A stretch of 42,809 bases of DNA from Oscillospiraceae bacterium (GTDB lineage: Bacteria > Bacillota > Clostridia > Oscillospirales > Oscillospiraceae), in contig JAISJC010000062.1 of assembly GCA_031261745.1 (NCBI GenBank), positions 1-42,809 on the forward strand. Direction: 5' to 3'. Position numbers and translations under genes: made by a program. Positions 5,923 to 38,589 of this stretch are shown here, one piece after another. The first letter of the stretch is position 1. Each line of letters begins with the position of its first letter. Below the pieces are notes generated by a model. It ran no database searches. It was not told where the DNA came from and saw nothing but the letters and a program-made list of their open reading frames with translations.

Positions 5923-6852
5923 ATGAAAACCTACAAGAAACTCACGGAACTCATCGGCGGAACCCCCCTGCTTGAACTCACGAATTACTCGGCAAAAGCG
6001 GGACTGAAAGCGACCGTTCTCGGCAAACTGGAATACTTCAATCCGGCCGGATCGGTTAAAGACCGTATCGCAAAGGCGATGATTGACGACGCGGAAGCCA
6101 AAGGGCTGCTTAAAACCGGCTCCGTCATCATCGAGCCGACGTCCGGCAACACCGGTATCGGTCTCGCCGCCGTCGCGGCTTCGCGCGGGTATCGCATTAT
6201 CCTCACGATGCCGGAAACGATGTCCGTTGAGCGTCGCAACCTGTTGAAGGCCTACGGTGCGGAGCTTGTTCTGACCGACGGGTCCAAGGGTATGAAGGGC
6301 GCGATCGCGCGCGCGACGGAGCTTGCCGAAGAGATCCCCGGTGGCTTCATCCCGTCGCAGTTCACGAACCCCGCGAATCCCGCGGTTCACAAGGCGACGA
6401 CCGGTCCCGAAATCTGGGACGACACGGACGGCAAGGTTGACATTCTCGTCGGCGGCGTCGGCACGGGCGGCACGATTACGGGCGCGGGCGAATACCTGAA
6501 ATCCAAGAACCCGAACATCAAGGTCATCGCGGTCGAGCCGACCTCCTCCCCCGTTTTGTCCACCGGCACGGCGGGCGCGCACAAGATTCAGGGTATCGGC
6601 GCGGGCTTCGTGCCTGACGTTCTGAACACGAGCATTTACGACGAAATTATCACCGTGTCCAATGAGGACGCGTTCGCGACGGGTCGCGAGCTTGCCCACA
6701 GCGAGGGATTACTCGTCGGAATTTCCTCCGGCGCGGCGGCCTGGGCGGCCGGCGAACTCGCCAAACGTCCTGAGAACGCGGGTAAGATTATCGTCGCGAT
6801 TCTCCCCGACACGGGTGAGCGTTATCTGTCCACCCCGATGTTCGCGGACTAA
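5923..6852 (+). CDS. cysK: Cysteine synthase A (O-acetylserine sulfhydrylase), housekeeping copy
   Basis: 309 residues. The PLP lysine is in AGSVKDRIA, the substrate loop in [12 protein letters not shown], the phosphate-binding loop in [12 protein letters not shown] and the C-terminal [10 protein letters not shown] is typical of fold-type II cysteine synthases. It makes cysteine from O-acetylserine and sulfide. AAGGAG lies upstream and the gene is the last in the Rrf2-ridA-cysK unit, ending at a strong hairpin. A second, clearly different copy sits inside the nitrogenase-like operon at 30937-31908; the two share the core motifs but diverge in N-terminus and C-terminal tail. Confidence 0.95.
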
Positions 6853-23407: not shown

Positions 23408-24376
23408 ATGGATAAAGATGAAGCCCTTGAAAGTTTTTACCGCCTGAATAAAATCGACAAATTGCGGGTACACAATCCGGATTCCGCCGATTATGATAAA
23501 CGCATTGAGGAACTGCCGGAAAAGTTAGACAAATGGCTGGCGTCCGTTGCGTGTGATGACCGTGAAATATTTCTTCGGCTTTTCAGCAGATATACATATA
23601 TTACTCCCGCGGTTGCGCAGGAGCGTTATGAGCGCGCCGTCGTACTGTTAAAAGACAAGCTGGCGGCTCAAAGTCTGTCGCTATCCGACGTCCTTTTCAT
23701 TACCGTTGAGGCACCCGGTGCCGCGAAAAGCGGCAGTGACAATGTAAGAACGGATTTGCACAGGAGGACACTGGATGAAATAGACAAAGAGCAAATTATC
23801 GCCTCTTGCGGGAAATTAAAATCGGATGTTTGGACCGGTTACAAAGCGATTGTTTTTGTTGATGATATAGTCGGAACCGGATTTACTTTGAGCGGGGAAA
23901 TCAAACGTGTAGCTGAAAATTATTCGCTTGATAATAAATTGCTGTACTATATTTGTTTGATTCCTACGCGATCGGGAATTAGATTTATAAAGAAAAAATG
24001 CAAAGAAATCAATATAATTATTACACCGACTTTTGAAAAACCGTGGATTTTACCATCCGCATTCAAAGAAAACTTCACTGCTGCGGAAGAGGAAAGAGTT
24101 CGGTGTTATGAAGAAATAATTGATGCCTATATGAAGGAGCCGGATAAAACTTTTGTTATGGGTTTTTATGAAAGCAAACAGCTGATCTCATTTTATTATA
24201 ATACTCCCAACAATACGCTGTGCTGTTTTTGGAAAGAGTCAGACATCCATACACCGCTCTTCAAACGGCAGGGACAGCGACCGACACTGTCAGATCTTAA
24301 AGATGCAAAAACGGGAAATGTTGAAAATGCGTATGCCATAGCTGCTGAAAAGAGAAGAAAAGGTGTGGCTCGATAA
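23408..24376 (+). CDS. Retron accessory protein, phosphoribosyltransferase-like
   Basis: 322 residues. IVFVDDIVGTGFTLSGEI is the PRPP-binding loop of type I phosphoribosyltransferases. The first 120 residues are helical and the region after the loop (LLYYICLIPTRSGIRFIKK ... IIITPTFEKPWILPSAF) resembles the so-called PRTase-CE proteins linked to conflict systems. Its stop overlaps the next start (TAATG). In known retrons a protein of this type is part of the toxic effector held in check by the reverse transcriptase and its RNA-DNA product; I recall this pairing with a winged-helix partner from the type III retrons, but cannot confirm the type here. The substrate is unknown. The gene is AT-richer than the flanks. 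Confidence 0.82.
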   Translation: MDKDEALESFYRLNKIDKLRVHNPDSADYDKRIEELPEKLDKWLASVACDDREIFLRLFSRYTYITPAVAQERYERAVVLLKDKLAAQSLSLSDVLFITVEAPGAAKSGSDNVRTDLHRRTLDEIDKEQIIASCGKLKSDVWTGYKAIVFVDDIVGTGFTLSGEIKRVAENYSLDNKLLYYICLIPTRSGIRFIKKKCKEINIIITPTFEKPWILPSAFKENFTAAEEERVRCYEEIIDAYMKEPDKTFVMGFYESKQLISFYYNTPNNTLCCFWKESDIHTPLFKRQGQRPTLSDLKDAKTGNVENAYAIAAEKRRKGVAR

Positions 24377-24666
24377 TGCATATATATGTTTATGACCGTT
24401 TAATACTGGGTTATTTATATGAACATTCGGATTTTTCTTATGACCGGTTATCACAGCTCCTGAATTGTTCAAAGGTCTTTATTGACGAGCGGCTGCAACA
24501 GCTGAGGGCAAATGAATATATTGTTATAACACAGAATCATATCCGATTAACGAAAAAAGGTGAAAAGGAGAAATCAGACTATCCGGAGGCGCATCCCTAT
24601 GATATTCATACGCATTTTGAATGGGATGTTTTGTATATACCTGATGAGTTCAGATTAAACGATTAA
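24376..24666 (+). CDS. Retron accessory winged-helix protein
   Basis: 96 residues. Residues about 15-65 (SDFSYDRLSQLLNCSKVFIDERLQQLRANEYIVITQNHIRLTKKG) form a winged helix-turn-helix ending in a typical wing. The C-terminal part (DIHTHFEWDVLYIPDEFRLND) is unrelated to known DNA-binding domains that I can recognise. It overlaps the phosphoribosyltransferase-like gene by one base and is directly followed by the msr-msd RNA. It likely works with that protein as effector, or binds the reverse-transcribed DNA. Confidence 0.8.
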   Translation: MHIYVYDRLILGYLYEHSDFSYDRLSQLLNCSKVFIDERLQQLRANEYIVITQNHIRLTKKGEKEKSDYPEAHPYDIHTHFEWDVLYIPDEFRLND

Positions 24667-24667
24667 T

Positions 24668-24842
24668 AAAGTCGGGAACGGTTAGAATGGGGTGTATTCG
24701 CCCCCTTGCAAAAAGGCACTAACTCGTGTGCGTGATACACACATTTCGCTCGCTCCCCGTGGGTATCCGCTCGCTTCACGTGTGTATCACGCACACGGTG
24801 CAGCAATAACGAATAGGGTTTACCGTAACCGTTTCCGGCTTT
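24668..24842 (+). ncRNA. Retron msr-msd RNA
   Basis: Arms a1 (24668-24684, AAAGTCGGGAACGGTTA) and a2 (24826-24842, TAACCGTTTCCGGCTTT) pair over 17 bases with two G-U pairs, the closing stem of retron RNAs. G24685 directly after a1 is the candidate branching guanosine. The msr part has a hairpin GGGGTG-tatt-CGCCCC (24689-24704). The msd part is a perfect 18-base stem, CGTGTGCGTGATACACAC (24725-24742) with its complement at 24780-24797, closing a 37-base loop that holds the direct repeat CGCTCGCT twice (24747 and 24768). It lies between the winged-helix gene and the reverse transcriptase, 30 bases before the ATG. Confidence 0.88.
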
Positions 24843-24871
24843 GTTATATATTATCGGAGAGTAAAGGCATT

Positions 24872-25867
24872 ATGGAACAACAAGAATATATCACGCGTCT
24901 TCGGCAAGCGATGGAGAAAAAACAATATCCGGCTCAATATATTCAGTTGTGCTGTACATATGCTCAGACGCTTATAAACAAGAATTTACCTGTGTTTTTC
25001 GATGCGCAGCATATTAACTCGGTTCTCAGATTAGGCGACATTCAAGAAGATTACTATAATAGATTTATTGTAAAAAAAGGAAAAAAACACAGACTGATTA
25101 CAGCACCGAGTAAGCCTTTGAAGTTAAGGCAGAGATGGATTCTCGACAATATCTTATCAAAAATAGAAATCTCCGAGTATGCACACGGTTTTGCAAAAAA
25201 CCGTTCAATTGTAACTAATGCCGTAACGCATATTTCGCAGCCGGTTGCTTTCTGTTTTGATATTAAGGACTTTTTTCCGTCAATTAAAGAGAAATCTGTT
25301 GCCGATATATTCAAAAATGCGGGTTATTCAGACAGTGTGTCGGCAAAATTTGCTTCGCTGTGTTGTTATGAAGGCGTTGTGCCGCAGGGGGCTCCGACCA
25401 GCCCCTATATTGCGAATGTTGTATGCGTAACGATGGACGAGGAATTGGCGGCGATGTCACAACAGTTAGGTGCCCGCTATACCAGATATGCTGACGACAT
25501 AACCATTTCCTGCGACAGGGATATTACGCCGCATATGCGGGATATTGAAAACATAATTAATGCATACGGCTTTCAATTAAATGCGGATAAAACCCGCGTG
25601 TTCGGTGAGAACAGACCGAAATTTATTACCGGATTAGTGGTCGGCGAGGATATACGAATAAGAAAAGCCTTCAAAAGAAAACTCAAACAAGAAATTCATT
25701 TCTGCAAAAAATTCGGCGTGACAGTTCATCTGGAAAATTCAAATAATGCAAAATCTATTAATTACAAAGAGCATTTGTACGGTAAAGCCTATTACGTAAA
25801 AATGGTCGAACCCGAATTGGGAATACATTTTCTAAAAGAATTGGACGAAATAGTTTGGCCGATCTGA
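24872..25867 (+). CDS. Retron reverse transcriptase
   Basis: The ATG at 24872 (MEQQEYITRL) is chosen, with GGAGA upstream; the longer track start would run through the msr-msd RNA. The 331-residue protein has the retron-specific NAxxH motif (TNAVTHIS), catalytic FCFDIKDFFPS, PQGAPTSPYIANV, YTRYADDITIS with the YADD box, NADKTRV, and ITGLVVGE, which stands for the VTG motif that recognises the msr RNA. It copies the msd template to a branched RNA-DNA. No maturase or endonuclease domain is present, so it is not a group II intron enzyme. A strong terminator follows. Confidence 0.95.
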   Translation: MEQQEYITRLRQAMEKKQYPAQYIQLCCTYAQTLINKNLPVFFDAQHINSVLRLGDIQEDYYNRFIVKKGKKHRLITAPSKPLKLRQRWILDNILSKIEISEYAHGFAKNRSIVTNAVTHISQPVAFCFDIKDFFPSIKEKSVADIFKNAGYSDSVSAKFASLCCYEGVVPQGAPTSPYIANVVCVTMDEELAAMSQQLGARYTRYADDITISCDRDITPHMRDIENIINAYGFQLNADKTRVFGENRPKFITGLVVGEDIRIRKAFKRKLKQEIHFCKKFGVTVHLENSNNAKSINYKEHLYGKAYYVKMVEPELGIHFLKELDEIVWPI

Positions 25868-25982: not shown

Positions 25983-26046
25983 TTGACAAACGCGCTGTAA
26001 TGAGGTATCATATAAAACATATCGAATACCTATGTTTTATATGATA
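25983..26046 (+). promoter_or_regulatory. Promoter and palindromic operator of the nifH-like operon
   Basis: Consensus TTGACA (25983-25988), 17-base spacer, TATCAT (26006-26011). The -10 box is the first part of a perfect inverted repeat: TATCATATAAAACATA (26006-26021), nine bases, TATGTTTTATATGATA (26031-26046). A protein bound here would block the promoter, so repression is expected. The inner half AAAACATAT recurs behind the promoter of the opposing operon near 38875. Candidate binders are the Rrf2 regulator in this window or another, unseen factor. Confidence 0.8.
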
Positions 26047-26064
26047 ATAAGTGAGGTCAAAACA

Positions 26065-26943
26065 GTGGCAAAGAAAATAAAGCAAATCGCAATTTACGGC
26101 AAGGGCGGCATCGGCAAATCGACGACCACCTCAAATCTCTCCGCCGCGCTTTCAAAGCTCGGCTTCAAAGTTATGCAGTTCGGGTGCGACCCGAAGAGCG
26201 ACTCGACGAACACGCTGCGCGACGGCGAGTACATACCGACCGTGCTCGACACGCTGCGCGAGAAAAGCGTAGTCAAGGCGAACGACGTTATCTTCCAAGG
26301 GTTCAACGGCATATACTGCGTCGAGGCGGGCGGTCCCGCACCCGGCGTCGGCTGTGCGGGCCGCGGAATCATCACCGCCGTTGAGTTATTCAAGCAGCAG
26401 AAAGCGTTTGAGGCACTCGACCTCGATTACGTCATCTACGACGTCCTCGGCGACGTGGTTTGCGGCGGGTTTGCAATGCCGATTCGCGAGGGCATCGCGG
26501 AACACGTTTTTACCGTCTCCTCGTCGGACTTTATGAGCATTTACGCGTCGAACAACCTGTTTAAGGGCATCCAGAAGTATTCCAACGCCGGCGGCGCGCT
26601 CCTCGGCGGCGTAATCGCCAACTCAATCAGCGCGGGCTATTCCAAGGAGATTGTCGACGACTTCGCGGAGCGCACAAAGACACAGATTATGGAGTACATT
26701 CCGCGCTCGATAACCGTCACGCAGTCCGAGCTTCGCGGCAAAACCACAATCGAAGCCGCACCCGATTCCGCGCAGGCGAAGGTCTATATGTCGCTCGCGG
26801 AGAAAATGGCGGCGCACGAGATTTCACACACACCGGCTCCGCTTGAACTCACCGACCTGCGCGCCTGGGCCTCGTCGTGGAGCGACCAGTTGATCGCGCT
26901 TGAAACAGGCGTCGTCGTCGGCGGTGGTGCGGCCGGCATTTAA
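26065..26943 (+). CDS. NifH-like ATP-dependent reductase of a nitrogenase-like system
   Basis: The start is GTG 26065 ([20 protein letters not shown]), with GTGAGGT upstream; earlier ATGs lie within the operator. The 292-residue protein has Walker [10 protein letters not shown], cluster-binding cysteines C97 in GVGCAGRGI and C133 in [16 protein letters not shown], and R100, the residue of the ADP-ribosylation site in nitrogenases, at the same number as in Azotobacter NifH. It forms a dimer bridged by one 4Fe-4S cluster and passes electrons to the catalytic partner with ATP hydrolysis. The catalytic subunits are encoded in the opposing operon at 31926-34818. The sequence is close to true NifH, closer than to BchL/ChlL. 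Confidence 0.93.
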
Positions 26944-26968
26944 TTTTCAGTAAATGAGTTGATTAATT

Positions 26969-28195
26969 ATGAGGGTAGCCTTAGCTTCAAGGGATTCCGA
27001 CTTTGTGGCACAGCACTTCGGACGCGCTCCCGCGTTCCTGATTGCCGATGTTTCGGAAGCCGACGGCAGCTGGAAAATCGTCGAACAGCGTGCGAACGCG
27101 CCCGCGTGTACCGGTGACGAGCAGGGGCATTCCTCTGCGCAGTTCGCCGAGACGTTCAAGATTATCGAGGACTGCGGCGCGGTCATAGCTGTGAAAATCG
27201 GCAACTACGCGCAGGTTGAACTACAACGGCGAGGAATCTCCGCGCTCGAAAAATCCGGTGTCGTAGACGAAATTCTTGACAGCTACGGTAAGTACCTGAC
27301 GCGGGCAAAAAAGCCGCTGATTAACGCTGTCGTCGCGAAGAAAGCCGATTTAAGCGACCACCCCTGCTTCGCGGAGAGCGCGGAAAACCGCCACGGGCGG
27401 CTCCACCTCCCGACGAGCGCGGCGTGCAATATTCAGTGCCGCTTTTGCCAGCGCAGCTGCAACACCGATGAGGAGCGTCCCGGCGTTTCGCAGGGCATCG
27501 TCTCCCCTGACGAAGCCGTTAGTATTGTCGCGCGCGCCTTGGAGCTGTCTCCGAATATCGCGGTCGTCGGTATCGCGGGGCCGGGTGACACGCTCGCTTC
27601 GCCGTACGCGCTCGAAGCGTTCCGCCGCGTCAACGAGGTTTATCCGGAACTCATAAAATGTATGTCCACGAACGGACTCGCCCTCCCCGGCCGCGCGCGC
27701 GACCTTTATGATGCGGGCGTTCGTGCGCTTACGGTCACGGTGAACGCCGTGAAGCCGGAGATTACGGCGCAGATCGTCTCGCAAATTGTCTATCAGGGCA
27801 AAATCTACACCGGTGAGACCGCGGGTGCGATACTGATTTCCAATCAGCTTGCGGGAATACGCGAGGCCGTCGCGCAGGGCATCACAGTCAAGGTCAATTC
27901 CGTGCTGATCCCCGGCGTGAACGATGAACACGTCGCCGAGATTGCGAAAGCAGTTGCGGAGGCGGGAGCGGAGCGGCACAACATCATTCCGCTGATACCG
28001 CAGTACGAATTTGCTGATACGCCCGCGCCGACGTGCGAACAGACGGAGAAAGCCCGCGCGGAAGCCGGCAAGTACATAAATCAGTTTCTGCATTGTGCGC
28101 ACTGCCGTGCGGACGCCTGCGGAGTGCCGGGCGAGTCCGACTTTTCGGAGCAATTGTACTCAGGGAAGGTTTTGGAGACGTTCAGTCACGGTTGA
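26969..28195 (+). CDS. NifB-like radical SAM cofactor synthase with NifX-like domain at the N-terminus
   Basis: 408 residues. Residues 1 to about 110 (MRVALASRDSDFVAQHFGRAP ... ) resemble the NifX/NafY cofactor-binding domain. Then comes a NifB core: DHPCFAESAENRHGRLHLP, the radical SAM cysteines C153, C157 and C160 (ACNIQCRFC), RPGVSQGIVSP, and GIAGPGDTLASP. The end has HCAHCRADACGVPG, typical of NifB. NifB makes the carbon-centred Fe-S precursor of nitrogenase cofactors. In usual NifB the NifX-like part, when present, is at the C-terminus; here the order is reversed. It is downstream of the nifH-like gene by 25 bases and in the same operon. Confidence 0.93.
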   Translation: MRVALASRDSDFVAQHFGRAPAFLIADVSEADGSWKIVEQRANAPACTGDEQGHSSAQFAETFKIIEDCGAVIAVKIGNYAQVELQRRGISALEKSGVVDEILDSYGKYLTRAKKPLINAVVAKKADLSDHPCFAESAENRHGRLHLPTSAACNIQCRFCQRSCNTDEERPGVSQGIVSPDEAVSIVARALELSPNIAVVGIAGPGDTLASPYALEAFRRVNEVYPELIKCMSTNGLALPGRARDLYDAGVRALTVTVNAVKPEITAQIVSQIVYQGKIYTGETAGAILISNQLAGIREAVAQGITVKVNSVLIPGVNDEHVAEIAKAVAEAGAERHNIIPLIPQYEFADTPAPTCEQTEKARAEAGKYINQFLHCAHCRADACGVPGESDFSEQLYSGKVLETFSHG

Positions 28196-28219: not shown

Positions 28220-28248
28220 ATCCCCGCTCTTACGAGCGGGGATTTTTA
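28220..28248. terminator. Bidirectional terminator where the two nitrogenase-like operons meet
   Basis: Hairpin ATCCCCGCTC-ttac-GAGCGGGGAT followed by TTTTTA on the plus strand and TTTG on the minus strand. Confidence 0.88.
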
Positions 28249-28908
28249 TGTGAGTTTTCCGTTTTCCATCTGCAAATGGCGGTCGCAGTATCGCAGACTC
28301 TCGGTCTCGTGCGTGACTACAAGGACTGCGGTTCCGGATTTTGCGACGGCAGAGAACAGTTCCATAACCCCGTCGGAGTTGCGCCGGTCGAGGTCGCCCG
28401 TCGGCTCGTCCGCAATCAGCAGACGCGGGGCGTTAACCAGCCCGCGCGCGATTGAGACGCGCCGCAGTTCCCCGCCGGACAGCTCCGCGGGATAGGAGTG
28501 CGCGAGATGCGCGATTCCGACCTCGGCGAGCAGCTCCCCCGCGCGGTCCGCCGGGTTCCCGACACGCGGATAGAGGTAGAACGGCAGGCAGACGTTTTCG
28601 AGGACTGTCAGGTTCGCGAGGACGCTGTGGCCCTGCGGAATGTAGCCGATTTGCGTGTTGCGCAGATATGACAGCTCGGCGTCGCCGAGCGAAGTCAGTT
28701 CGGTCGCGTCGAACGTGACCGCACCCGCGCTCGGCGGCAGCAGCCCCGCGATAATATTCAGCAGCGTGGACTTCCCGCTCCCCGAATGGCCGGTGACGCA
28801 GACAAATTCACCCGCGCCGAGCGCGAGGCTCGCGTTCTCCACCGCAAAAAAGTGCGCCGCGCCGCGCTGATAGCGTTTTGATACACTTTTGACATCTAAC
28901 AGCGTCAC
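28246..28908 (-). CDS. LolD/MacB-type ABC transporter ATPase
   Basis: The track frame extends upstream into the permease gene; the true start is GTG 28908 (MTLLDVKSVSKRYQ), preceded by GGAGGG and sharing one base with the permease stop. The 220-residue protein has Walker A GHSGSGKSTLL, signature LSGGELRRVSIARGL, Walker B RLLIADEPTGDLDRR and the switch histidine in VVTHE. It pairs with the FtsX-type permease upstream. LolD/MacB systems extract or drive transport of lipoproteins, peptides or small molecules rather than import; the substrate is unknown. It is the last gene of the 38832-28246 operon. Confidence 0.92.
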   Translation of the reverse strand: MTLLDVKSVSKRYQRGAAHFFAVENASLALGAGEFVCVTGHSGSGKSTLLNIIAGLLPPSAGAVTFDATELTSLGDAELSYLRNTQIGYIPQGHSVLANLTVLENVCLPFYLYPRVGNPADRAGELLAEVGIAHLAHSYPAELSGGELRRVSIARGLVNAPRLLIADEPTGDLDRRNSDGVMELFSAVAKSGTAVLVVTHETESLRYCDRHLQMENGKLT

Positions 28909-30119
28909 TATTCGCCCTCCCGCATTATCGAATTTGTGGCGATACTTCCGATTTTCACGGCGGAGCGGAGCGCGGCGAGCGGACCCGTGAGCATCGACAA
29001 CGCCAGTCCCCCGCCGAGAATTGCCGCGAGTGTTCCCGCGTCCGGCTGCAAATACGGCAGGTCGATCGACAGTCCGATCAACCTTGAAAACGGGAAAAAC
29101 GCGAGGCACAGCAACGCTGTGCCGATTACCGCGCCGGAAAGGCTGATAATCACCGATTCCGTGATGATGATTTGTGCGAGCTTGCGCCGCGTCGCGCCGA
29201 GCGCGCGGTAAATCCCGAATTCGCGCTTGCGCTCGCCGAGCGTCACGGAGAAGAGAATCGCGAGGACGCCGACGGTCAGCAGCCATAGAAACACAATCAG
29301 CGCGGTGATAATCGTGAGAAATGTGTTCAGATTGCCGGCAACGCTTCCGAGCATAGACTGCGTGAGCAAAACGCCGACGTTTTCGTCGCGAAAGCCGTAA
29401 CGAATCCCGCGTGCGAAGTCGTTTTCGCTCACGTTTTGCGCAATATTCACGGCGATGGACGAGACCGCGCCGTCACCGTCGGGGACATTCTCGCCGCCGA
29501 GCTTCGCGTAGTCGCGTAATGCGGCCTGAGCCGTGTCCAAGTTGATGAAAACAGATGTGTCGAAGCCCATTCCCGTCTCGTCGAGCTTGCCGACGACGTT
29601 GTATTTCGACCCCAAAAGTGTAAGCACTTCGCCGATTTTCCCGTCAACGGACGCGCCGATGATGATCTCGCTGTCGCGCGGACCTCCCGGCACGGCTTCG
29701 GCGAGCCACGGCGCGACGACAAAGTCGGTAGACGGGTCGTAACCTATCATCTGCACGGCGAAGTCGCAATGCTCCGACTCGAATGACGCGATAAAGAGCT
29801 GCGGTGACGCCTGACTTATTCCGTCCGCGTTCAGCAAGCGTGACGCAAGTTCGCCGTCGAAGAAAAACGCCGACGGTTCCCCGCGCAGCAACGCGCCCTC
29901 CGCTTTCGTCTCGTACCCCGCGGGGACGAGCATTGCGTCCGCGCCGAGGCGGTCAGACATACTCGCCGTGCCGGTTTTCAGGCTTGACGCGAGCAATGAG
30001 CCGCCGATCAGTGCGAACGAAAGCAGCGCGACGAGCGCGATTAAGCATACGCTCCGTCCCGCCCGCCGCCGAATATTACGCGTAGACAGATTAAGCGCGG
30101 TTAACTGCTGCGTGCGCAT
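28908..30119 (-). CDS. FtsX/MacB-type ABC transporter permease
   Basis: 403 residues. One N-terminal membrane helix (VCLIALVALLSFALIGGSLLA), a large extracellular domain of about 200 residues, and three C-terminal helices (TIITALIVFLWLLTVGVLAILFSV, IIISLSGAVIGTALLCLAFF, TLAAILGGGLALSMLTGPLAAL). The LGERKREFGIYRALGATRRKL segment is the usual cytoplasmic loop contacting the ATPase. It overlaps the DUF4418-like gene by 29 bases and the ATPase gene by one, so all three are coupled. Confidence 0.9.
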   Translation of the reverse strand: MRTQQLTALNLSTRNIRRRAGRSVCLIALVALLSFALIGGSLLASSLKTGTASMSDRLGADAMLVPAGYETKAEGALLRGEPSAFFFDGELASRLLNADGISQASPQLFIASFESEHCDFAVQMIGYDPSTDFVVAPWLAEAVPGGPRDSEIIIGASVDGKIGEVLTLLGSKYNVVGKLDETGMGFDTSVFINLDTAQAALRDYAKLGGENVPDGDGAVSSIAVNIAQNVSENDFARGIRYGFRDENVGVLLTQSMLGSVAGNLNTFLTIITALIVFLWLLTVGVLAILFSVTLGERKREFGIYRALGATRRKLAQIIITESVIISLSGAVIGTALLCLAFFPFSRLIGLSIDLPYLQPDAGTLAAILGGGLALSMLTGPLAALRSAVKIGSIATNSIMREGE

Positions 30120-30534
30120 TTTTCGTGTCCTTTCCGCTCTTCACAAGAAGGTATACAGTGTTGCCGATTGCGAGCGCGAACGATAGAATGCTGATGACAT
30201 TGAGCGCGGGCAGCGTCTTTACGCGGCACGCCATCATCGCCATATCGTCCATTCCGATAAGTACGTTCGCGAGCAGGAATGTCAAGACGCTCGTCGCCGC
30301 GACGGAAAGGCTGATACCGGCGCGCGTCTGCTCCGACGCGAAAATGAGATACGCGACGCCGAGCAGCGCAACAATAATACCGACGCCGATTGTCGCCTGA
30401 CCGGTCCAGAAGCAGACCGAATGTCCCTCGTGATGACCCTGATCGCAAATCTTGAAGATTGTGTGCGGACCGACTGCGGTCAGCGCGCCCGTTACGACGG
30501 TTGCGACTCCGCCGATAATACGATTTTTGCTCAT
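30091..30534 (-). CDS. DUF4418-like four-helix membrane protein
   Basis: ATG 30534 is used, with GGAGG eight bases away. The 147-residue protein has four membrane helices, a His/Cys-bearing first outer loop (KICDQGHHEGHSVCFWTGQ) and a second one with MACRVKT. I recognise the DUF4418 pattern, a family often encoded with LolD- and FtsX-like proteins in anaerobes. The Cys and His in the outer loops could bind a metal or heme (speculation). It overlaps the FtsX-type gene and probably forms part of the same transporter. Confidence 0.75.
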   Translation of the reverse strand: MSKNRIIGGVATVVTGALTAVGPHTIFKICDQGHHEGHSVCFWTGQATIGVGIIVALLGVAYLIFASEQTRAGISLSVAATSVLTFLLANVLIGMDDMAMMACRVKTLPALNVISILSFALAIGNTVYLLVKSGKDTKNAHAAVNRA

Positions 30535-30558
30535 AATATTTGCCTCCAAAACCCTGCG

Positions 30559-30933
30559 TTATGTGAACTGCCGGTGCTTGTATGATTTTTTAATTTTTAC
30601 GAACGCGTCCTCAATCGTGCCGTTGAACTGCAACGGCACGATATGTTTCAGCGTCACCTGCTTCTCGGACTTCCCGCCGATTTTCTGCACGAGTATAATC
30701 TGCACATCGCCCAGCGCGTCGAGTTTGGACGTGACGGCGGTTTCGTCGTGTCCGCCGCCGCACCCGCAGTCTTCGCCGCCATCGGCGTCTTCATCTACGA
30801 AGCTGCGTCGCTCGACGAGGATGGTTTCGTCAGAGTCCTGGTCAATTTCGTAGATGAAAAAGCCTTTGGCCTGACCGAAATGCTCAGTCACATTCACGCC
30901 GTCCGTCGTTCCGACGGCAATCTTGTACCTCAT
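30559..30933 (-). CDS. NifX-like cofactor-binding protein with Cys/Gly-rich insert
   Basis: 124 residues. The N-terminus MRYKIAVGTTDGVNVTEHFGQAKGFFIYEI is the NifX/NafY fold, in which the histidine of the HFG motif and nearby residues hold iron-molybdenum or precursor clusters. A loop at about residues 50-60 contains CGCGGGH, a possible metal or cluster site not usual for the family. The likely role is holding the NifB product on its way to the D/K complex. It is placed directly after the cysteine synthase gene, with only three bases between, and its ribosome binding site is weak, so it depends on coupling. Confidence 0.85.
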   Translation of the reverse strand: MRYKIAVGTTDGVNVTEHFGQAKGFFIYEIDQDSDETILVERRSFVDEDADGGEDCGCGGGHDETAVTSKLDALGDVQIILVQKIGGKSEKQVTLKHIVPLQFNGTIEDAFVKIKKSYKHRQFT

Positions 30934-30936
30934 CGC

Positions 30937-31908
30937 TTAATACCAGAAGCGGCTCTTTTCGTCCGCGACGTTCTTAAACAGGTCGGTGGAGAGATAACGC
31001 TCGCCCGTGTCGGGAAGAATTGCGACGACGGTTTTCCCTTTGTTTTCGGGGCGGCGGGCGATGCGAGCCGCGGCGAACGCTGCGGCACCGGACGAGATTC
31101 CGACGAGCAGCCCCTCCTCGCGCGCGAGGACGCGCGCCGTGTCAACGGCTTCCTCGTCCAGAACCTTGTAAATATCGCTGATCAGCGACAGATCCAAGAC
31201 CTGCGGCACGAAGCCTGCGCCGATGCCCTGAATTTTATGCGGTGACGGATTGCCGCCCGACAAAACGGGAGAAGCGGACGGCTCGACCGCGATAATCTCC
31301 ACGGACGGTTTCTTTTCCTTTAAGAACGCACCCGCACCGGTGATGGTTCCGCCCGTTCCGACGCCGCCGACAAGAATATCGACTTTGCCGCCCGTGGCGT
31401 CCCAGATCTCCGGACCCGTTGTCGCCTTGTGAATACGCGGGTTCGCGGGGTTATTGAACTGTTGCAGGATTACGCCGTGCGCGACCTGCGTTTGAAGTTC
31501 CTCCGCCTTGCGAATCGCGCCTTTCATCCCCGCTGCGCCTGGCGTGAGGACAAGTTCCGCACCGAGCGCGGCGACGAGACCGCGACGCTCCTGCGTCATT
31601 GTGTCGGGCATTACGATTACGATTTTGTACCCGCGCGCCGCCGCGACGAACGCGAGTCCGACGCCGGTGTTGCCGCTCGACGGCTCGATGATTACGCTCT
31701 CAGGCGTGAGAATCCCCTGCTCCTCCGCGTCGGTGATCATCGCGTAGGCGATGCGGTCCTTGACCGAGCCGAGCGGATTGAAGTATTCGAGTTTCAGAAG
31801 CAGCTCCGAGTGGTCTGCGAGTCCGGCGAGTGCGGAGAATTTCTTCGGGCGCAGAATCGGCGTGTTGCCGATAAGCTCCGTGAGGTTATTCACGATTTGA
31901 TTGCTCAT
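30937..31908 (-). CDS. cysK: Cysteine synthase, second copy, in the nitrogenase-like operon
   Basis: 323 residues with PLP lysine in [36 protein letters not shown] and [11 protein letters not shown]. It differs from the other copy in its N-terminal insertion ([15 protein letters not shown]) and its longer C-terminus ([11 protein letters not shown]). The reaction would be O-acetylserine plus sulfide giving cysteine. Placement between the catalytic subunits and the NifX-like carrier suggests that the nitrogenase-like enzyme produces sulfide, or that cysteine is needed for cluster assembly (inference). AAGGAG precedes the ATG. Confidence 0.94.
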
Positions 31909-31925: not shown

Positions 31926-33461
31926 TTATACTAAATCGTTTTCTTTGATGTTGTCTTTCACGTCGGTGTCGAACCATTCCTTGCGGAGCGGCAGATTTAC
32001 GTTCGCTGAAATGTTTTTCACGAAGTTTGTGTTTTTCAGGACCTTCACGGCCTTGCGCGCCAGTTCGTACGCACCCGAATAGCCCATAAAGTTCAGGCCC
32101 ATTCCGAACAGCGGGAGGTTCGGCACGCCGAGTCTCGCCACCCAGCCGTTCGCGCCCATATGACCGCAATAGAGGTCGGGTTTGAGCTTGTTGATGATAT
32201 TCAACTCCTCGGCAGGCTGACCCGCCGCGACTTCGATTACGAGTTCGGGACCGGTCACGTCTTCGAGAATCTCTTCGACGAAGCGGTCAACATTGTGCGC
32301 CTTGACGCCGACGAGTTCCATTCCGAGCGTTGACGAGAAGAATTCCGCCGTCGTGAGAATGCGCGTCTCGCCGCCGCCGACGAAGATTTTCTTGCCTTTC
32401 AGCTCTTTTTTCAGCGGTTCAAGTGCTTCAAGCAGCTGATCGTTTTCGAGCTTAATCACGCGCGCGGCTTCGTCTTCAAGTCCGAAGAATTCCGCGACTT
32501 TCCACAGCCAGCGGTTCGTGTTCTTGATGCCGATCGGCAGCGTGTCAATGATGTACGGCGTGCCGAAAAGCTCTTTGAGGTGACCGAGAAGATAGTCGTC
32601 GTGCGTCGCGCAGATGGACACGTTCAGCGCGGCGTCGCCGAGCCGGGCGAGGTCGTCAAGCGAATTGTGCAGCGGCACGACCTTCGGGAACAGACCGAGT
32701 GCGGATACGAGACGCGAGAGTTCGTTTTCATCTCCGGGCGAGTTGGAGCCGACGTTGAAGATGTTGACCGTGCGGCTGTTTTTGTAGCGTTCGAGCGCGT
32801 CCTGTCCCTCGTCTGGGAACACGCGGTCATACTGCTTAATCGGCTCTAACAGGCTGCGCAGGAAGCCGTGATATGCGGCATCGTAGCCGGACGCGACGTA
32901 ACGGCTTTTGAAGCCCTCGCAGTGTACCGGTACGAGCTTCGCGGAAAGACGTCCGTTGAGTTCATTCACGAGCGAGTCAATATCGTCGCCGATAATTCCG
33001 GGGACGCAACCGTTGGCGATGACAATCGCTTCGGGATTGTATTCCTTTTCGGCGTACAAAATCGCCTCGCGCAGCTTGTCGATGCCGCCGTTTACGACGT
33101 CGAGCTGATCCATATTCGTGTGGAGCCACACGAAATCTTCGTTGCGCTTGCCGCGCGTTTCGCGCTGCGTCTTACGCATTCCCGCCTGTCCGCCGAAGCC
33201 GGAGCAGCAACCGAGCGGAGAGTGAATAATCGTAACGACGTTCGTAATGCTCGAAGCAATGCCGACGGCGAGACCGAGCTGGCAACCGCCCGACTGCGCA
33301 AATTTGCGGCTCTGCACCTGCGCGCAGCCGCTTTTCACGTCCTCGTTCAGGTCGCCGCAGGTTCCGCAGTACGCCGAACAAACGCCGATACGCGTTTCAC
33401 GAACCGGAGGCGCAATGCCCTTCGTAAAATTATAGGTCAGTTCATCACTGTATTTTGACAT
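31926..33461 (-). CDS. NifD-like catalytic subunit of a nitrogenase-like reductase
   Basis: 511 residues. Cys60, Cys86 and Cys152 match the P-cluster ligands of NifD (62, 88 and 154 in Azotobacter) in both spacing and context (HSPLGCCSG, ANGCVPGIIGDD). Cys283 in NVSICATHDDYLLGHL matches the cofactor cysteine (275). HCEGFKSR aligns with the NifD CEGFRG helix, but the residues equal to Arg96, Gln191 and His195 read as Gly, Val and Tyr by this alignment, and no His442 equivalent is visible near LFGMGLNFMGYSGAYELA. The enzyme is thus unlikely to reduce N2. The N-terminus adds C28, C32, C35 and C46, a possible extra Fe-S site. AGAGGAG precedes the ATG. Confidence 0.88.
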   Translation of the reverse strand: MSKYSDELTYNFTKGIAPPVRETRIGVCSAYCGTCGDLNEDVKSGCAQVQSRKFAQSGGCQLGLAVGIASSITNVVTIIHSPLGCCSGFGGQAGMRKTQRETRGKRNEDFVWLHTNMDQLDVVNGGIDKLREAILYAEKEYNPEAIVIANGCVPGIIGDDIDSLVNELNGRLSAKLVPVHCEGFKSRYVASGYDAAYHGFLRSLLEPIKQYDRVFPDEGQDALERYKNSRTVNIFNVGSNSPGDENELSRLVSALGLFPKVVPLHNSLDDLARLGDAALNVSICATHDDYLLGHLKELFGTPYIIDTLPIGIKNTNRWLWKVAEFFGLEDEAARVIKLENDQLLEALEPLKKELKGKKIFVGGGETRILTTAEFFSSTLGMELVGVKAHNVDRFVEEILEDVTGPELVIEVAAGQPAEELNIINKLKPDLYCGHMGANGWVARLGVPNLPLFGMGLNFMGYSGAYELARKAVKVLKNTNFVKNISANVNLPLRKEWFDTDVKDNIKENDLV

Positions 33462-33477
33462 AATATTTTCTCCTCTC

Positions 33478-34818
33478 TTATCGCGCGGCTATCAAGCCGG
33501 TAAGCAAATCTTCGACAAAGCTCAACGCGCCTTTGTAGCCCGCGTAACCCTTGTTCAGCACCACGCGGTTACTGACCGGATACGCCACGGCGAGGAAGCC
33601 CGCGCCGAGCTTTTCGGCGAGGCTGCGCTCAATGCCGCTGCCGATTACAAACGCGGGATTTAACGCGTCGTAATACTTGTTGTTTGCGTTCAATTCCCAG
33701 CTGTCGCGGACGTGTTTGAGCAATTGCCCCGCGTTCTGCTCGAATATAATCTTCGGTTTCGTTTCGGACGTGATGTCCGCAAACTTAGCCTCATAGTCCG
33801 CCTGACGCTCCGCGTCGTCCGCCTCGATGTCGTTAATCGCCGTGAGGTGCGGAATCCAGCCGAGGTCATTCGCGAGGAAGCGCGTGACCGCGTGGGCGTA
33901 ATACGTGTCCGCCGCGACGATCGCGAAGCGTTGAAGATCTATATCGGAGTAAATATCGACGATGCGCTCCAAAAACGAGTAGTACGAAACGCGCTCGTAT
34001 CTCAGAACCGACTCGACGAGTGCGATGTCGAGGTTCAGCGCGTCGCCGATCTGACGCAGGAAAATATCCGTACCCGTGGGACCGATCGGAATCTCGGAGA
34101 CGATATACGGCGTGCCGTGAATGTCCTCAAACGTCTTTGCGGGTTCCACGCCGACGTACGGAGACAGGACGACATTCAGTGCCGCGTCGCCGTAGCCGCG
34201 AATGGTCTCGACGGATTCGTCCGTCCCGAAGAACGTGTTGGCTTTTACGCCGACAAGGCGGAGCAGACGCTTCAACTCATCGAGGTTGCCGCGGTACTGA
34301 ACGTCGTGTCCCGGCACGACGCCGAGAATGTTCACTGTGCGGGCGTCTTTCGTGTCCGACTTGCGGATTACATCCTTGATTATCGCGTTGAGAACCGCGA
34401 CGTAGCCTTTTAGCGTGTTGCCGAGGAAACCGGGGCTGGACACGCCGATGACGTTTTGTTCGCGGAAGCGGTTCGCTATGGAAACCGCGTCGTCGCCGAT
34501 GATTTCAACCTGGCAGCCCGTAAGAACGACGTACAGGTCGCCGTCGAGAGCTTTAACGGTGTGTTCAATCTGCTCCGCAAGACGATCCTCGCCGCCGAAA
34601 ACGATGTTGTTTTCCGCGATGTTCGTCGTCGGAATCATATTTCCGCCGCAGTAACCGACGCCGCGATAGCCCGCCGCGACATTGTACGCGCCCGACAGCG
34701 ACGACGCACAGCCGCCGGCTGCGTGGACAATCGGCACGACGCGCGGAATACCCGCGACCGTCGTGAGCGCGCCGCCGAGCGCGCACGAGAATTTTGCTCG
34801 TTCAATAAAATCTGACAT
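33478..34818 (-). CDS. NifK-like subunit of a nitrogenase-like reductase
   Basis: 446 residues. Cys12, Cys37 and Cys101 (SCALGG, AAGGCASSL, LTGCQVEIIGDD) have the spacing of the NifK P-cluster cysteines (70, 95, 153; the first gap is 25 in both), and the protein lacks the about 58-residue N-terminal extension of NifK. C57 (VGYCGGN) is an extra cysteine. SSPGFLGNTLKGYVAVLNA and NILGVVPGHDVQYRGNLDELKRLL match the family core. It forms the D2K2 complex with the NifD-like subunit encoded 16 bases downstream. NifEN-like assembly proteins are not found in the window, and the retained cysteines make a catalytic role more likely than a scaffold. Confidence 0.87.
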   Translation of the reverse strand: MSDFIERAKFSCALGGALTTVAGIPRVVPIVHAAGGCASSLSGAYNVAAGYRGVGYCGGNMIPTTNIAENNIVFGGEDRLAEQIEHTVKALDGDLYVVLTGCQVEIIGDDAVSIANRFREQNVIGVSSPGFLGNTLKGYVAVLNAIIKDVIRKSDTKDARTVNILGVVPGHDVQYRGNLDELKRLLRLVGVKANTFFGTDESVETIRGYGDAALNVVLSPYVGVEPAKTFEDIHGTPYIVSEIPIGPTGTDIFLRQIGDALNLDIALVESVLRYERVSYYSFLERIVDIYSDIDLQRFAIVAADTYYAHAVTRFLANDLGWIPHLTAINDIEADDAERQADYEAKFADITSETKPKIIFEQNAGQLLKHVRDSWELNANNKYYDALNPAFVIGSGIERSLAEKLGAGFLAVAYPVSNRVVLNKGYAGYKGALSFVEDLLTGLIAAR

Positions 34819-34851: not shown

Positions 34852-35733
34852 TTAAATAACTGTATCCGGTAAAATTTCTTCGCCGATGTCGATTTGCGCG
34901 CGCGGTGTTTTTTCCTCCGGGGCCTTGTCTTGAAGTAATTCCCAGACGTGGTGCGAAACAAGGCTGAAATCCGGCGTGTTGCGCACGTCGCCGATTCTGC
35001 GCGGGCGCGGCAGCTTGACGTCCACGACCTCTTTAACGGAGCCGGGAGAGCGGCAGATAACCGCGACGCGGTCCGCCAGACCGACGGCCTCCTCGATGCT
35101 GTGCGTGACGAAGATGATCGTCTTGCCTGTTTTCTCCCAGATCGTCAGCAGTTCGTCCTGCATTGTCTCGCGCGTCTGCGCGTCCACCGCCGCGAACGGT
35201 TCGTCCATAAGCAGCACCTCCGGGTCGTACGCGAGCGCGCGCGCGATTGCGACGCGCTGCTGCATCCCTCCGGAAAGCTCATACGGATAGTGGTTCTCGA
35301 ACCCGACCAGATCAACGAGCTTAATAAACTTGTCGCTTATCTCCGCGCGTTCCTTTGCGGGAATGCCCTTGATTTCAAGCCCGAACTCAATATTGCGCCG
35401 AACCGTGCGCCACGGGAAGAGCGCGTAGCCCTGCAAGACAATGCCACGGTCCAAATCGGGACCCTTAATCGCCTTGCCGTCGATGAGAATCTGCCCCTCG
35501 TCGGCTTTTGAAAGCCCGACAAGCAAATCCAAGAGAGTGGATTTGCCGCAGCCGGACGGCCCGACGATGGCGACAAATTCACCCTTATTAATAGCGAGAT
35601 TGAAGTCCTTCAACGCGAAGAACTTCTCCTTGGTTTTTGTGCCGGGCACATTCGATTTCTTGTTGAACGAGCGTCCCAAGCCGCGTATTTCAATCTTCGG
35701 CGTTCCTTCAAGCACCGCCGCCGTTGCCGCCAT
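34852..35733 (-). CDS. ABC transporter ATPase, nitrate/sulfonate/taurine type
   Basis: ATG 35733 (MAATAAVLEGTPKIEIRGLGRSF) is chosen over the GTG upstream, since AAGGAAGTGA lies upstream of it. The 293-residue protein has Walker A GPSGCGKSTLL, Q-loop LQGYALFPW, signature LSGGMQQRVAIARAL, Walker B EVLLMDEPFAAVD and the H-loop FVTHSIEEA. The pattern fits SsuB/TauB/NrtD. It powers the paired permeases encoded upstream and follows the solute-binding protein gene. Confidence 0.93.
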   Translation of the reverse strand: MAATAAVLEGTPKIEIRGLGRSFNKKSNVPGTKTKEKFFALKDFNLAINKGEFVAIVGPSGCGKSTLLDLLVGLSKADEGQILIDGKAIKGPDLDRGIVLQGYALFPWRTVRRNIEFGLEIKGIPAKERAEISDKFIKLVDLVGFENHYPYELSGGMQQRVAIARALAYDPEVLLMDEPFAAVDAQTRETMQDELLTIWEKTGKTIIFVTHSIEEAVGLADRVAVICRSPGSVKEVVDVKLPRPRRIGDVRNTPDFSLVSHHVWELLQDKAPEEKTPRAQIDIGEEILPDTVI

Positions 35734-35764
35734 AAAAATCACTTCCTTAATACATATCTCGGTG

Positions 35765-35805: not shown

Positions 35806-36942
35806 TTATTTGAATTGCGGGGCCGTCAGGTCAGCTACCGTTATCGCCCCTACGGGCAGCGCGCCGGACTCTTCAAGGTCCTTGATCCACGGGTCGATTA
35901 ATTCAACGGGGAATCCGTCGCCGGAGTAGTAATAGTGAACCGCGTTGATTGCCTTTTCGATGTAGGCTTCGGTCAGCGCGATAGCCTCTTCCTCGTTGTC
36001 GAGCGTCCACTTTGACGCCTCTTTGATCGCGGTCACGAAACGCTGAACCGCGACGGGGTTGGATTCGATGAACTCATCGGTGAAGTAGAAAACCGAGGTG
36101 CCGGACGCGGCTCCGAGGCCGGAATCCGCAGAATCGGCGAGGAGGATAAGCCCCTCTTCCTCCGCGAGGTAGTAGAACGGCGGGTGAATGCCCGCGATAA
36201 TCAGATTGTCGGGTCCGAGCTGGACGGCCTGAATCGCCGCGATATCGGAGTCAAACGCCACAAAGCTGAGTTTCTTCGAGTCAAGTCCGTTGTTCTTGAA
36301 GATTTGGTTCGGGATGAACGAGGAGCAGGACGGAGCGCGCCCGCTGATTGTAATCTCGCCGTTTTTGTACAGGTCGGAATTTTTCAGCTCTTCGAGCGTC
36401 GTGATGCCGAGCTTCGGTGAGACGTAGAAGCGCATATGACGGAATTTCGGGTCAACGTCCGCAGGGGGGTCAACCTGGTTCAGCGTGACCGCCTTGATTG
36501 CCGCGCCCTCGCCCTCGTCGCCGTAGACATACGTCGCGAGCGCGTTCGGGAGCGTTCCGTCAAAGTCGTTCGTGCCTTGCAGGACTGCGGAGAGCGCGTC
36601 GGTCGTTTCGCCGGTGTACTCAATCTTTATGCCGTTTTTCTCGAAGAAGCCTTTGGCCTCCGCGACGACGAAAGGCGTCGATGTGCAATTCTTCTTCGTG
36701 CTGGTGTGCAGGGTGATGATCTGCGTGAGGTCGCCGACGTCAATTATGTCATCTCCGCTTACGGTAGATGCGTTTGAGCCGGTATCGGCCGTTACGACGG
36801 GGCTTTTGTCCGCCGAGGACGGATCCTTGGGTCCGATATTCGCTTTGGTCTTACCGACCGTGGAGCCGATTGTAATTCCGGCTGCGACTACCACAACCGC
36901 GGCGACGATAGCGCCGATTTTTCCGTTTTTACCGAGTGCCAT
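35806..36942 (-). CDS. ABC transporter solute-binding protein, SsuA/NMT1-like, membrane-anchored
   Basis: 378 residues; GGAGGAA precedes the ATG. The first 30 residues (GAIVAAVVVVAAGITIGSTVG) form a hydrophobic helix without lipobox cysteine, so the protein is likely held by an uncleaved N-terminal anchor or released by signal peptidase I, unlike most Gram-positive binding proteins. The mature part has the NMT1/SsuA pattern: FVVAEAKGFFEKNGIKIEY, DALSAVLQGTNDFDGTLPNALATYVYG and YFTDEFIESNPVAVQRFVTAI. The family binds aliphatic sulfonates, taurine, nitrate or thiamine precursors. The ligand is probably an organosulfur compound, by context. CTSTPF and APSCSSF place unusual cysteines in the binding-protein body. 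Confidence 0.88.
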   Translation of the reverse strand: MALGKNGKIGAIVAAVVVVAAGITIGSTVGKTKANIGPKDPSSADKSPVVTADTGSNASTVSGDDIIDVGDLTQIITLHTSTKKNCTSTPFVVAEAKGFFEKNGIKIEYTGETTDALSAVLQGTNDFDGTLPNALATYVYGDEGEGAAIKAVTLNQVDPPADVDPKFRHMRFYVSPKLGITTLEELKNSDLYKNGEITISGRAPSCSSFIPNQIFKNNGLDSKKLSFVAFDSDIAAIQAVQLGPDNLIIAGIHPPFYYLAEEEGLILLADSADSGLGAASGTSVFYFTDEFIESNPVAVQRFVTAIKEASKWTLDNEEEAIALTEAYIEKAINAVHYYYSGDGFPVELIDPWIKDLEESGALPVGAITVADLTAPQFK

Positions 36943-37033: not shown

Positions 37034-37810
37034 TCATTTCAGCGCGGCCTCCTTCCATACGAGGAAGTGTTTCTCCAAGCGCACGAACAGGAAGTTCACC
37101 AAAATCGCGAGGACCGTTATGAAGAGAATTGAGCCGTAAATCAGCGAGAGTTTATGTACAATTCTCTGTTGCGCGTAGTACCAGCCGAGGCCGTTAATCG
37201 CGCCCAGCGTCTCCGACGCGACCATCATAAAGAACGCCACGCGGCTCGACAGCCGCAGCCCCGTGAATATACTCGGCAGCGTGTACGGGAAGATTACGCC
37301 CGTGAAAACCTTGAACCGGTTCGCGCCCATACTACGCGCGGAGCGGACGAGGGAGAGGTCAACGCTCTTCGCGCCCTCCTGCGTGTTGAAGAAAATCGGC
37401 CAGAACGCCGCCCAGAACACGACCGCGATTTTTTCCTTGTCGCCCACCCCGAAGAGAATCATAAACACGGGGATAATCGCGAACGGATTGAGCTTTTCGC
37501 ACACGCGGAAGAACGGCAGGAAGAGCTTTTCCAGCGAGCGGAAATACGTTCCGAGGGCGAATCCGAGTACGATTCCGACGACCGACGCGAGCAGATAGCC
37601 GCGTAATATTCTCGACAGGCTCTGTCCCGTGTGCCATAGCAGAACGTGTTCGGGGTCGATAAACGCCTTCCACATCGCCTTTGCAATCTTCTCAGGCGAG
37701 GAGATTACGCCGCGCGGAACGTGCGACGAGCCGATTTGCCACAGAACAAAGAACGCGATAATCGGCAGAGCCGCAATAAGGAAACGCTTTACAAAATTCA
37801 GTGCTTTCAT
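37034..37810 (-). CDS. ABC transporter permease, nitrate/sulfonate/taurine type, second of a pair
   Basis: 258 residues with about six membrane helices. The EAA loop EGAKSVDLSLVRSARSMGANRFKVFTGVIFPYTLPSIFTGLR contacts the ATPase. It overlaps the upstream permease gene by four bases (ATGA). The sister permease at 37807-38589 is similar but distinct, so the channel is likely a heterodimer. C-terminal LVWKEAALK and the sister's DWKEVPEDVII are alike. Confidence 0.9.
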   Translation of the reverse strand: MKALNFVKRFLIAALPIIAFFVLWQIGSSHVPRGVISSPEKIAKAMWKAFIDPEHVLLWHTGQSLSRILRGYLLASVVGIVLGFALGTYFRSLEKLFLPFFRVCEKLNPFAIIPVFMILFGVGDKEKIAVVFWAAFWPIFFNTQEGAKSVDLSLVRSARSMGANRFKVFTGVIFPYTLPSIFTGLRLSSRVAFFMMVASETLGAINGLGWYYAQQRIVHKLSLIYGSILFITVLAILVNFLFVRLEKHFLVWKEAALK

Positions 37811-38589
37811 ATAATCACGTCCTCCGGTACCTCTTTCCAGTCCACAAACGTCTTTTCAACCGCGCCGAGGGCTCCGTTGAGCAGAAATCCGACCACGCAG
37901 ACAATCAGTGCGCCGAGATAGATGCGCGGTATCCAGCCGAGACCCTGCGCGTTGTGTATCATCCAGCCGATTCCGCTGTCCGCGCCCATACTCTCGGAGC
38001 CGATTAGCATCAGAAATCCCATTGTCAGACCGGAGCGTATGCCGCGCATAACATTCGGGAAGATTGCGGGGAAAATAACCTTGAACAGGACGTCTCCCGT
38101 GCTCGCCCGCATTGACTTCGCGGCGCGGATTAAACGGGGGTCGATATCGTTGACGCCCTGCATTGTTGTAAAAAGTACGGGCCAGAACACAGACCAGAAT
38201 ATTACTATGTAAATTCCGTTCTCCCCCGGCCCGATAACCAAGAGAAAGAGAGGATACAGGATGAACGGCGGTATCTGCGACAGAAATTGCATCAACGGCC
38301 GCAGGAACGCCGCGAGTTTCGGCGCACCGTCCGCGAGGACGAAGCCGAGCGGGAGCGCGATTACCGTGCTGAGCGCGAAGCCGAACACAACACGTTTGAG
38401 CGAGATTGCGATATGCACGAGGATCCGCGCAAGACCGAGATCCGCGCCCTCCGTGAGAACCGTCGTGAACGGCGGCACGAACGTCGCGTTCGTCCAGCCG
38501 AACTTCGACGAGAACTGCCAAACGAGAATAAAAGCAATAATCAGGTAAAAGCTCATCAGGCGTTTATGTATTGCCAATAGAATTTTCAT
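37807..38589 (-). CDS. ABC transporter permease, nitrate/sulfonate/taurine type, first of a pair
   Basis: 260 residues, about six membrane helices, EAA loop NDIDPRLIRAAKSMRASTGDVLFKVIFPAIFPNVMRGIR. GGAGGGTAA precedes the ATG. It follows a terminator-like hairpin at 38613-38640 and is the first transporter gene of the operon. SsuC/TauC-type channels are usually homodimers, so having two permease genes is unusual for this family. Confidence 0.9.
   Translation of the reverse strand: MKILLAIHKRLMSFYLIIAFILVWQFSSKFGWTNATFVPPFTTVLTEGADLGLARILVHIAISLKRVVFGFALSTVIALPLGFVLADGAPKLAAFLRPLMQFLSQIPPFILYPLFLLVIGPGENGIYIVIFWSVFWPVLFTTMQGVNDIDPRLIRAAKSMRASTGDVLFKVIFPAIFPNVMRGIRSGLTMGFLMLIGSESMGADSGIGWMIHNAQGLGWIPRIYLGALIVCVVGFLLNGALGAVEKTFVDWKEVPEDVII

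Follow-up and report, generated by a model that had tools for sequence, protein, structure and literature searches.

NflD and NflK, the two nitrogenase-like subunits encoded in the 42,809-nucleotide Oscillospiraceae contig analysed here (the window), most likely strip sulfur from organic compounds to supply cysteine synthesis. Judged from its sequence, NflDK is a group IV nitrogenase-like reductase whose clade is close to, and separate from, methylthio-alkane reductase (Mar); no member of the NflDK branch has been characterised so far. NflDK very probably keeps nitrogenase-type iron–sulfur clusters, and its predicted active site is unlike one for N2 chemistry, the equivalents of Gln191, His195, Arg96 and His442 all being replaced. 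What is new here is a large CysK-linked clade with an active-site signature of its own, of which a literature search found no published description. The cysK link itself has been known since 2012, when Dos Santos et al. reported that Cys275-bearing nitrogenase-like proteins adjoin cysteine synthase or O-acetylhomoserine sulfhydrylase (PMC3464626), and a 2026 paper describes, from a spirochete of the termite gut, a nifK-nifD operon of group IV that goes together with cysteine synthase (PMC13067680).

The nflDK locus and its host

The genes at and around the locus are as follows.

26032–26943, plus strand: nflH, NifH-like ATP-dependent reductase (TIGR01287, 393.4 bits against a cut-off of 394.35)
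26969–28195, plus strand: nflB, NifB-like radical SAM protein with an N-terminal NifX-like domain (TIGR01290, 306 bits, below the cut-off of 343.65; PF04055, PF02579)
28246–30549, minus strand: DUF4418 protein, FtsX/MacB-type permease and ABC ATPase (Pfam), possibly accessory, downstream of the NifX-like gene
30559–30933, minus strand: NifX-like protein (Nitro_FeMo-Co domain), possible cluster carrier (PF02579, 51.3 bits)
30937–31908, minus strand: cysK, cysteine synthase A, directly downstream of nflD (TIGR01139, 432.7 bits, cut-off 350.95)
31926–33461, minus strand: nflD, NifD-like catalytic D subunit, 511 aa; P-cluster cysteines C60/C85/C152; C284 and H434, predicted [Fe8S9C] ligands; H287-D288, clade-specific; also Y193, V189, R367 and F452
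33478–34818, minus strand: nflK, NifK-like K subunit, 446 aa; P-cluster cysteines C12/C37/C102
34852–38589, minus strand: four-gene ABC importer upstream of nflK (Pfam/NCBIfam), also present in close relatives; ATPase 34852–35742, NMT1/SsuA-type binding protein 35806–36942, permeases 37034–37810 and 37807–38589

The nflH and nflB genes (26032–28195) are divergent from the nflK-nflD-cysK-NifX-like run. The P-loop GKGGIGKST and both [4Fe-4S] cysteines of NflH are intact, the motifs HPCF, CNIQCRFC and CAHCRADA are found in NflB, and both the PLP and the substrate-loop motifs are present in CysK. The SsuA-type match of the importer's binding protein is weak, below the family cut-off, and the importer family points weakly to an anionic organosulfur compound as cargo. 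The DUF4418 and FtsX/MacB-type transporter genes recur near the same type of operon at five other loci (L052, L055, L057, L071 and L100). A second strong cysteine synthase gene (5923–6852, 456.8 bits) lies elsewhere in the window, with no adjoining nitrogenase-like gene, and a retron-type reverse transcriptase (24692–25867) together with a PRTase-CE family protein (23408–24376) likely forms a retron defence system at 23408–25867.

The host genome (2.46 Mb in 155 contigs, 91% complete) also has a complete ordinary Mo-type nif set on contig C33, in which nifN is fused to nifB. Another cysK-K-D operon, likewise belonging to the NflDK clade, is apparently split at the ends of contigs C4 (7662–10222) and C153 (14696–16063).

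Predicted cluster ligands and active-site residues

The first-pass annotation had fixed the cysteine register of NflD at 60/86/152 against 62/88/154 of NifD. Profile and multiple alignments bear out the outer two positions, C60 and C152 matching NifD 62 and 154, but the middle P-cluster cysteine is C85, the first Cys of a 'CC' pair and a cysteine in 95 of 95 relatives, rather than C86. The position of NifD Arg96 therefore moves from Gly94 to Ala93: the arginine is absent, as had been claimed, while the glycine given in its place came from the one-residue slip via C86. A numbering error of the same size affects the cofactor cysteine, which is kept at 284 and not at 283, an isoleucine; C284 aligns with NifD Cys275. 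This residue and the three P-cluster cysteines are kept in every sequence with a letter at those columns, and the three NflK cysteines are conserved in 131–134 of 134 homologues.

Alignment with NifD by both MAFFT and hhalign confirmed the replacement of Gln191 by Val189 and of His195 by Tyr193. The column of His442 is occupied by Phe452 and holds Phe or Tyr in all 95 relatives. In addition, Lys426, the homocitrate anchor, is replaced by Gly436 and Ser278 by His287. Arg367, an arginine across the same 95 sequences, probably corresponds to Arg359. Compared with NifD of Mo nitrogenase, NflD shares the fold, the P-cluster cysteines, Cys275 and probably Arg359, and differs at the equivalents of Arg96, Gln191, His195, Lys426 and His442.

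The earlier reading that the motif around His442 is absent holds for the 442 position itself, which carries no histidine, but it overlooked a substitute elsewhere, His434. In MarD of Rhodospirillum rubrum, [Fe8S9C] is held by Cys270 and His429, the latter taking over the ligand role of His442; His429 sits in Loop I and not in the loop of His442, which is why earlier sequence analysis missed the ligand (PMC12552129). NflD His434 lies five residues past the Asp of a KPD motif, and phmmer, MAFFT and hhalign all pair it with MarD His429 (MarD numbering was verified on C66, C91, C158, C270, W195, F199, H375, R428 and H429). A conserved Gly follows this histidine at a spacing of 11 residues in 95 of 95 window-type relatives, 25 of 26 Mar-type sequences and 6 of 8 Nif/E sequences. 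Among 127 non-Nif D sequences collected by overall similarity, 121 have a Loop-I histidine, and so do all members of the tree-defined window clade; these two results are non-circular, whereas the 95/95 for His434 is partly circular, the sequences having been sorted by that residue. The presence of His434 exceeds chance, and the residue is predicted to be an [Fe8S9C] ligand together with Cys284.

Arg428 of MarD has no counterpart in NflD, which makes Loop I before His434 shorter by one residue, so that His434 may not reach Fe8. A simple register would place His434 at NifD Gly424, and His287, invariant and three residues from Cys284, offers another candidate; a further clade without the Loop-I His indicates that the family tolerates other arrangements. 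The cluster might then be held by Cys284 and another residue such as His287, or by a non-protein ligand. We regard this as distinctly unlikely, given that His434 is invariant in the clade, that three aligners place it on a proven MarD ligand and that its downstream spacing is identical to MarD's. The first-pass suggestion that the cofactor is bound in a different manner therefore holds in comparison with NifD. The mode of binding itself is not new: the predicted Cys and Loop-I His pair is a non-nitrogenase arrangement with a solved precedent in MarD (PMC12552129).

The AlphaFold2 model of NflD, built on a 65-sequence alignment, has a pLDDT of 90.3 and was used in place of an earlier 12-sequence model (pLDDT 71.5, low confidence at the active site). 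Its best PDB match is MarD 9fmg_A, which superposes on 457 residues with an rmsd of 2.2 and Z 40.2; the family ranked next reaches Z 32.2. A Foldseek search agrees with this match. In the model, His434 directly follows strand 430–433 and Cys284 lies just past strand 279–282. By sequence, the best solved relatives are again MarD for NflD and, for NflK, MarK 9d9u_C (253 bits).

MarDK (9fmg, 9d9u; PMC12552129) resembles NflDK in fold (Z 40.2), in the six P-cluster cysteines, in the cofactor cysteine (270 in MarD, 284 in NflD) and Loop-I histidine (429 and 434), in the loss of Gln191, His195, His442 and Lys426, in the linked NifB- and NifH-like genes and in a tie to sulfur assimilation. On the other hand, NflD lacks Arg428, with the shorter Loop I; has Val189 for Trp195, Tyr193 for Phe199, Tyr188 for His194 and Asn390 for His375; and carries an invariant His287-Asp288 and a NifD-like Arg367. 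The partner gene is cysK, in contrast to MetY in Mar.

Clade, sulfur linkage and cofactor supply

Of the 127 non-Nif D sequences, 26 have Arg-His as in MarD, 95 have the His without the Arg and 6 lack the His; the groups are defined by this trait, and the tree gives the same split. The window clade separates from R. rubrum MarD with support of 99 and 95 in two trees, and the Mar-side clade has support of 100 and 99. The Arg428 column is a gap in all 95 window-type sequences and an Arg in all 26 Mar-type ones. His287 and Asp288 occur throughout the window set (95/95), whereas the Mar set has Leu and Gly/Ser/Ala there; Tyr193 is likewise found in 95/95, against Phe in 25 of 26 Mar-type sequences, and Trp at the position of MarD Trp195 in only 3 of 95. 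Most residues lining the S2B site of MarD thus differ in the window set, and a substrate different from Mar's is likely on these grounds.

The window-type clade is hosted by Clostridia, Sporomusa, Treponema, Geobacter and other anaerobes, the closest D sequences coming mostly from Oscillospiraceae and other Clostridiales assemblies and from Sporobacter termitidis. Cultured carriers are Sporobacter termitidis DSM 10068, Anaerocolumna aminovalerica DSM 1283 and Sporomusa silvacetica DSM 10669, which makes NflDK function experimentally accessible. We also observed a third Cys275-bearing clade of four sequences (L035:8901-10343, L036:14330-15769, L037:3505-4983 and L038:9127-10587), in which all the cysteines are kept, the Loop-I His is deleted and an invariant His lies two residues before the NifD 442 position, a possible third way to hold the cluster.

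At 53 of the 65 usable clade loci a cysK gene is found no more than 3 kb from DK, where gene density and position would predict about 1%; about one fifth of the loci have none inside that distance. The nearest sulfur-amino-acid gene is cysK at 50 loci and MetY-type at 3 in the window clade; the corresponding counts for the Mar clade are 4 and 6 (Fisher p = 0.0002, too strong a value, since it ignores the kinship of the loci). At the Sporomusa silvacetica locus L079, a window-type DK and its cysK come first, then a MetY-type gene and a DK of the Mar side. Among eight carrier genomes tested, several of them incomplete, no ATP sulfurylase was found in any and no sulfite/nitrite reductase (NIR_SIR family) in seven. 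The cysK linkage, taken with the missing sulfite reductase and ATP sulfurylase, favours the release of sulfide, used by CysK, over sulfite or methanethiol. CysK may use a thiol or sulfite in place of sulfide, and the link may instead reflect general sulfur regulation.

The cofactor of NflDK is probably the plain [Fe8S9C] NifB product, as the first-pass annotation had considered; our results support this without proving it. A NifB homologue related to NflB of the window occurs in 17 of 17 carrier genomes, and the homocitrate anchor is lost. At an E-value threshold of 1e-60, NifE had no match in G009 (94% complete), G017 (88%), G289 (100%), G354 (96%) or G198 (99%), and only G198 of these five has a match to NifV (homocitrate synthase), with none in G009, G017, G289 and G354. 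These missing matches make a NifEN- or homocitrate-dependent cluster unlikely, at least in G009, G289 and G354.

Proposed function and alternatives

On balance we favour, with modest confidence, an ATP-dependent C–S reductase that uses a P-cluster and [Fe8S9C] and yields sulfide for cysteine synthesis. The NifH-like protein would hydrolyse ATP and hand electrons to a P-cluster bound by D cysteines 60, 85 and 152 and K cysteines 12, 37 and 102. From there the electrons would pass to an iron-only [Fe8S9C], which the NifB-like protein would supply and D Cys284 and His434 would bind. This cluster would reductively cleave a C–S bond in an organosulfur compound taken up by the cell. The sulfur set free, in the simplest case as sulfide, would go to the neighbouring cysteine synthase. 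More tentatively, we propose as a serious possibility that the clade is a second, widespread kind of C–S reductase, distinct from Mar in its active site (His without Arg, His287-Asp288) and in its product (sulfide to cysteine synthase), and that it would serve sulfur scavenging in anaerobes unable to reduce sulfate or sulfite.

NflDK could simply be a methylthio-alkane reductase with sequence drift, converting dimethyl sulfide or 2-methylthioethanol to methanethiol. MarDK is the closest solved structure for both subunits, the P-cluster cysteines, cofactor Cys and Loop-I His are common to the two enzymes, and formation of methanethiol or dimethyl sulfide has been reported for Sporobacter termitidis, one of the carriers in culture (PMC8359953). 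This is unlikely, as NflD is just about 27–30% identical to MarD and falls in a separate clade, Mar residues are missing (Arg428 in 0 of 95, Trp195 in 3 of 95, His375 often), His287-Asp288 never occurs in Mar-type sequences, and the partner gene is cysK and not MetY; the two types side by side in Sporomusa suggest different jobs. The NMT1/SsuA-type importer adjoining nflK recalls the isethionate reductase Isr (IsrBHDK) from Rhodobacter capsulatus. Isr is characterised as a nitrogenase-like enzyme of sulfonates and likewise combines DK, H and a radical SAM protein with an SsuABC importer and sulfur assimilation; its IsrB is only a distant NifB relative (PMC11423573). We consider it quite improbable that NflDK similarly imports a sulfonate such as isethionate or taurine and sets sulfite free, since IsrD lacks two of the three P-cluster cysteines and Cys275 (PMC11423573), all present in NflD, and sulfite would be a dead end in seven of eight carriers (no NIR_SIR match), and CysK requires sulfide. 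Identity with Isr itself was rejected: IsrD has one P-cluster Cys and no Cys275, whereas NflD keeps three and C284.

Two further readings carry very little probability. A cofactor scaffold like NifEN, with no enzyme activity, would fit the NifX-like neighbour, which is able to carry clusters, and the top NCBIfam match of NflD, the NifE family profile (146 bits, far under its cut-off of 505). It is extremely unlikely, given that the structure is nearer to MarD than to NifEN (Z 40.2 against 32.2), that all six P-cluster cysteines are kept while several carriers have no NifE match, and that the genes are linked to import and cysteine synthesis. A functional group IV-A (Nfa) nitrogenase, to which N2 fixation is credited in termite-gut Endomicrobium proavitum (PMC9147875, PMC11257099), finds some encouragement in the similar habitat. 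It is very unlikely too: another contig of the host already carries a full Mo-type nif set, the equivalents of Arg96, Gln191, His195, His442 and Lys426 are lost, MarDK has the same cluster without N2 reduction (PMC12552129), and Heliophilum NflDK1, which groups with NfaDK in PMC9147875, falls on the Mar side, the window type matching NflDK2 and NflDK4.

Mar was described in 2025 as the sole known nitrogenase-like enzyme with large nitrogenase clusters that is unable to fix N2; the window clade is very probably a second, beside it. If so, the P-cluster and [Fe8S9C] together would be used in a wider range of sulfur chemistry, the Loop-I histidine would exceed the Arg-His hallmark (PMC12552129) in age or generality, and surveys that infer nitrogen fixation from genes of this kind may be overcounting.

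In our tree, Heliophilum fasciatum NflDK2 and NflDK4 (PMC9147875) group with the window clade, their D subunits being about 38–39% identical to NflD (assignment by coordinates and gene order). An assignment of the window clade to group IV-A through the 40% Heliophilum match was rejected, because gene order shows that the match is NflDK2 and not NflDK1. NflDK1 itself falls in the Arg-His Mar-side clade, in a tree built without the Endomicrobium proavitum sequence; it has been proposed as that organism's nitrogenase and was grouped with E. proavitum NfaDK (PMC9147875). In NflDK1 (L160:7092-8570), MarD-like Arg-His, Trp and Phe replace Gln191, His195 and His442, which is awkward for N2 fixation.
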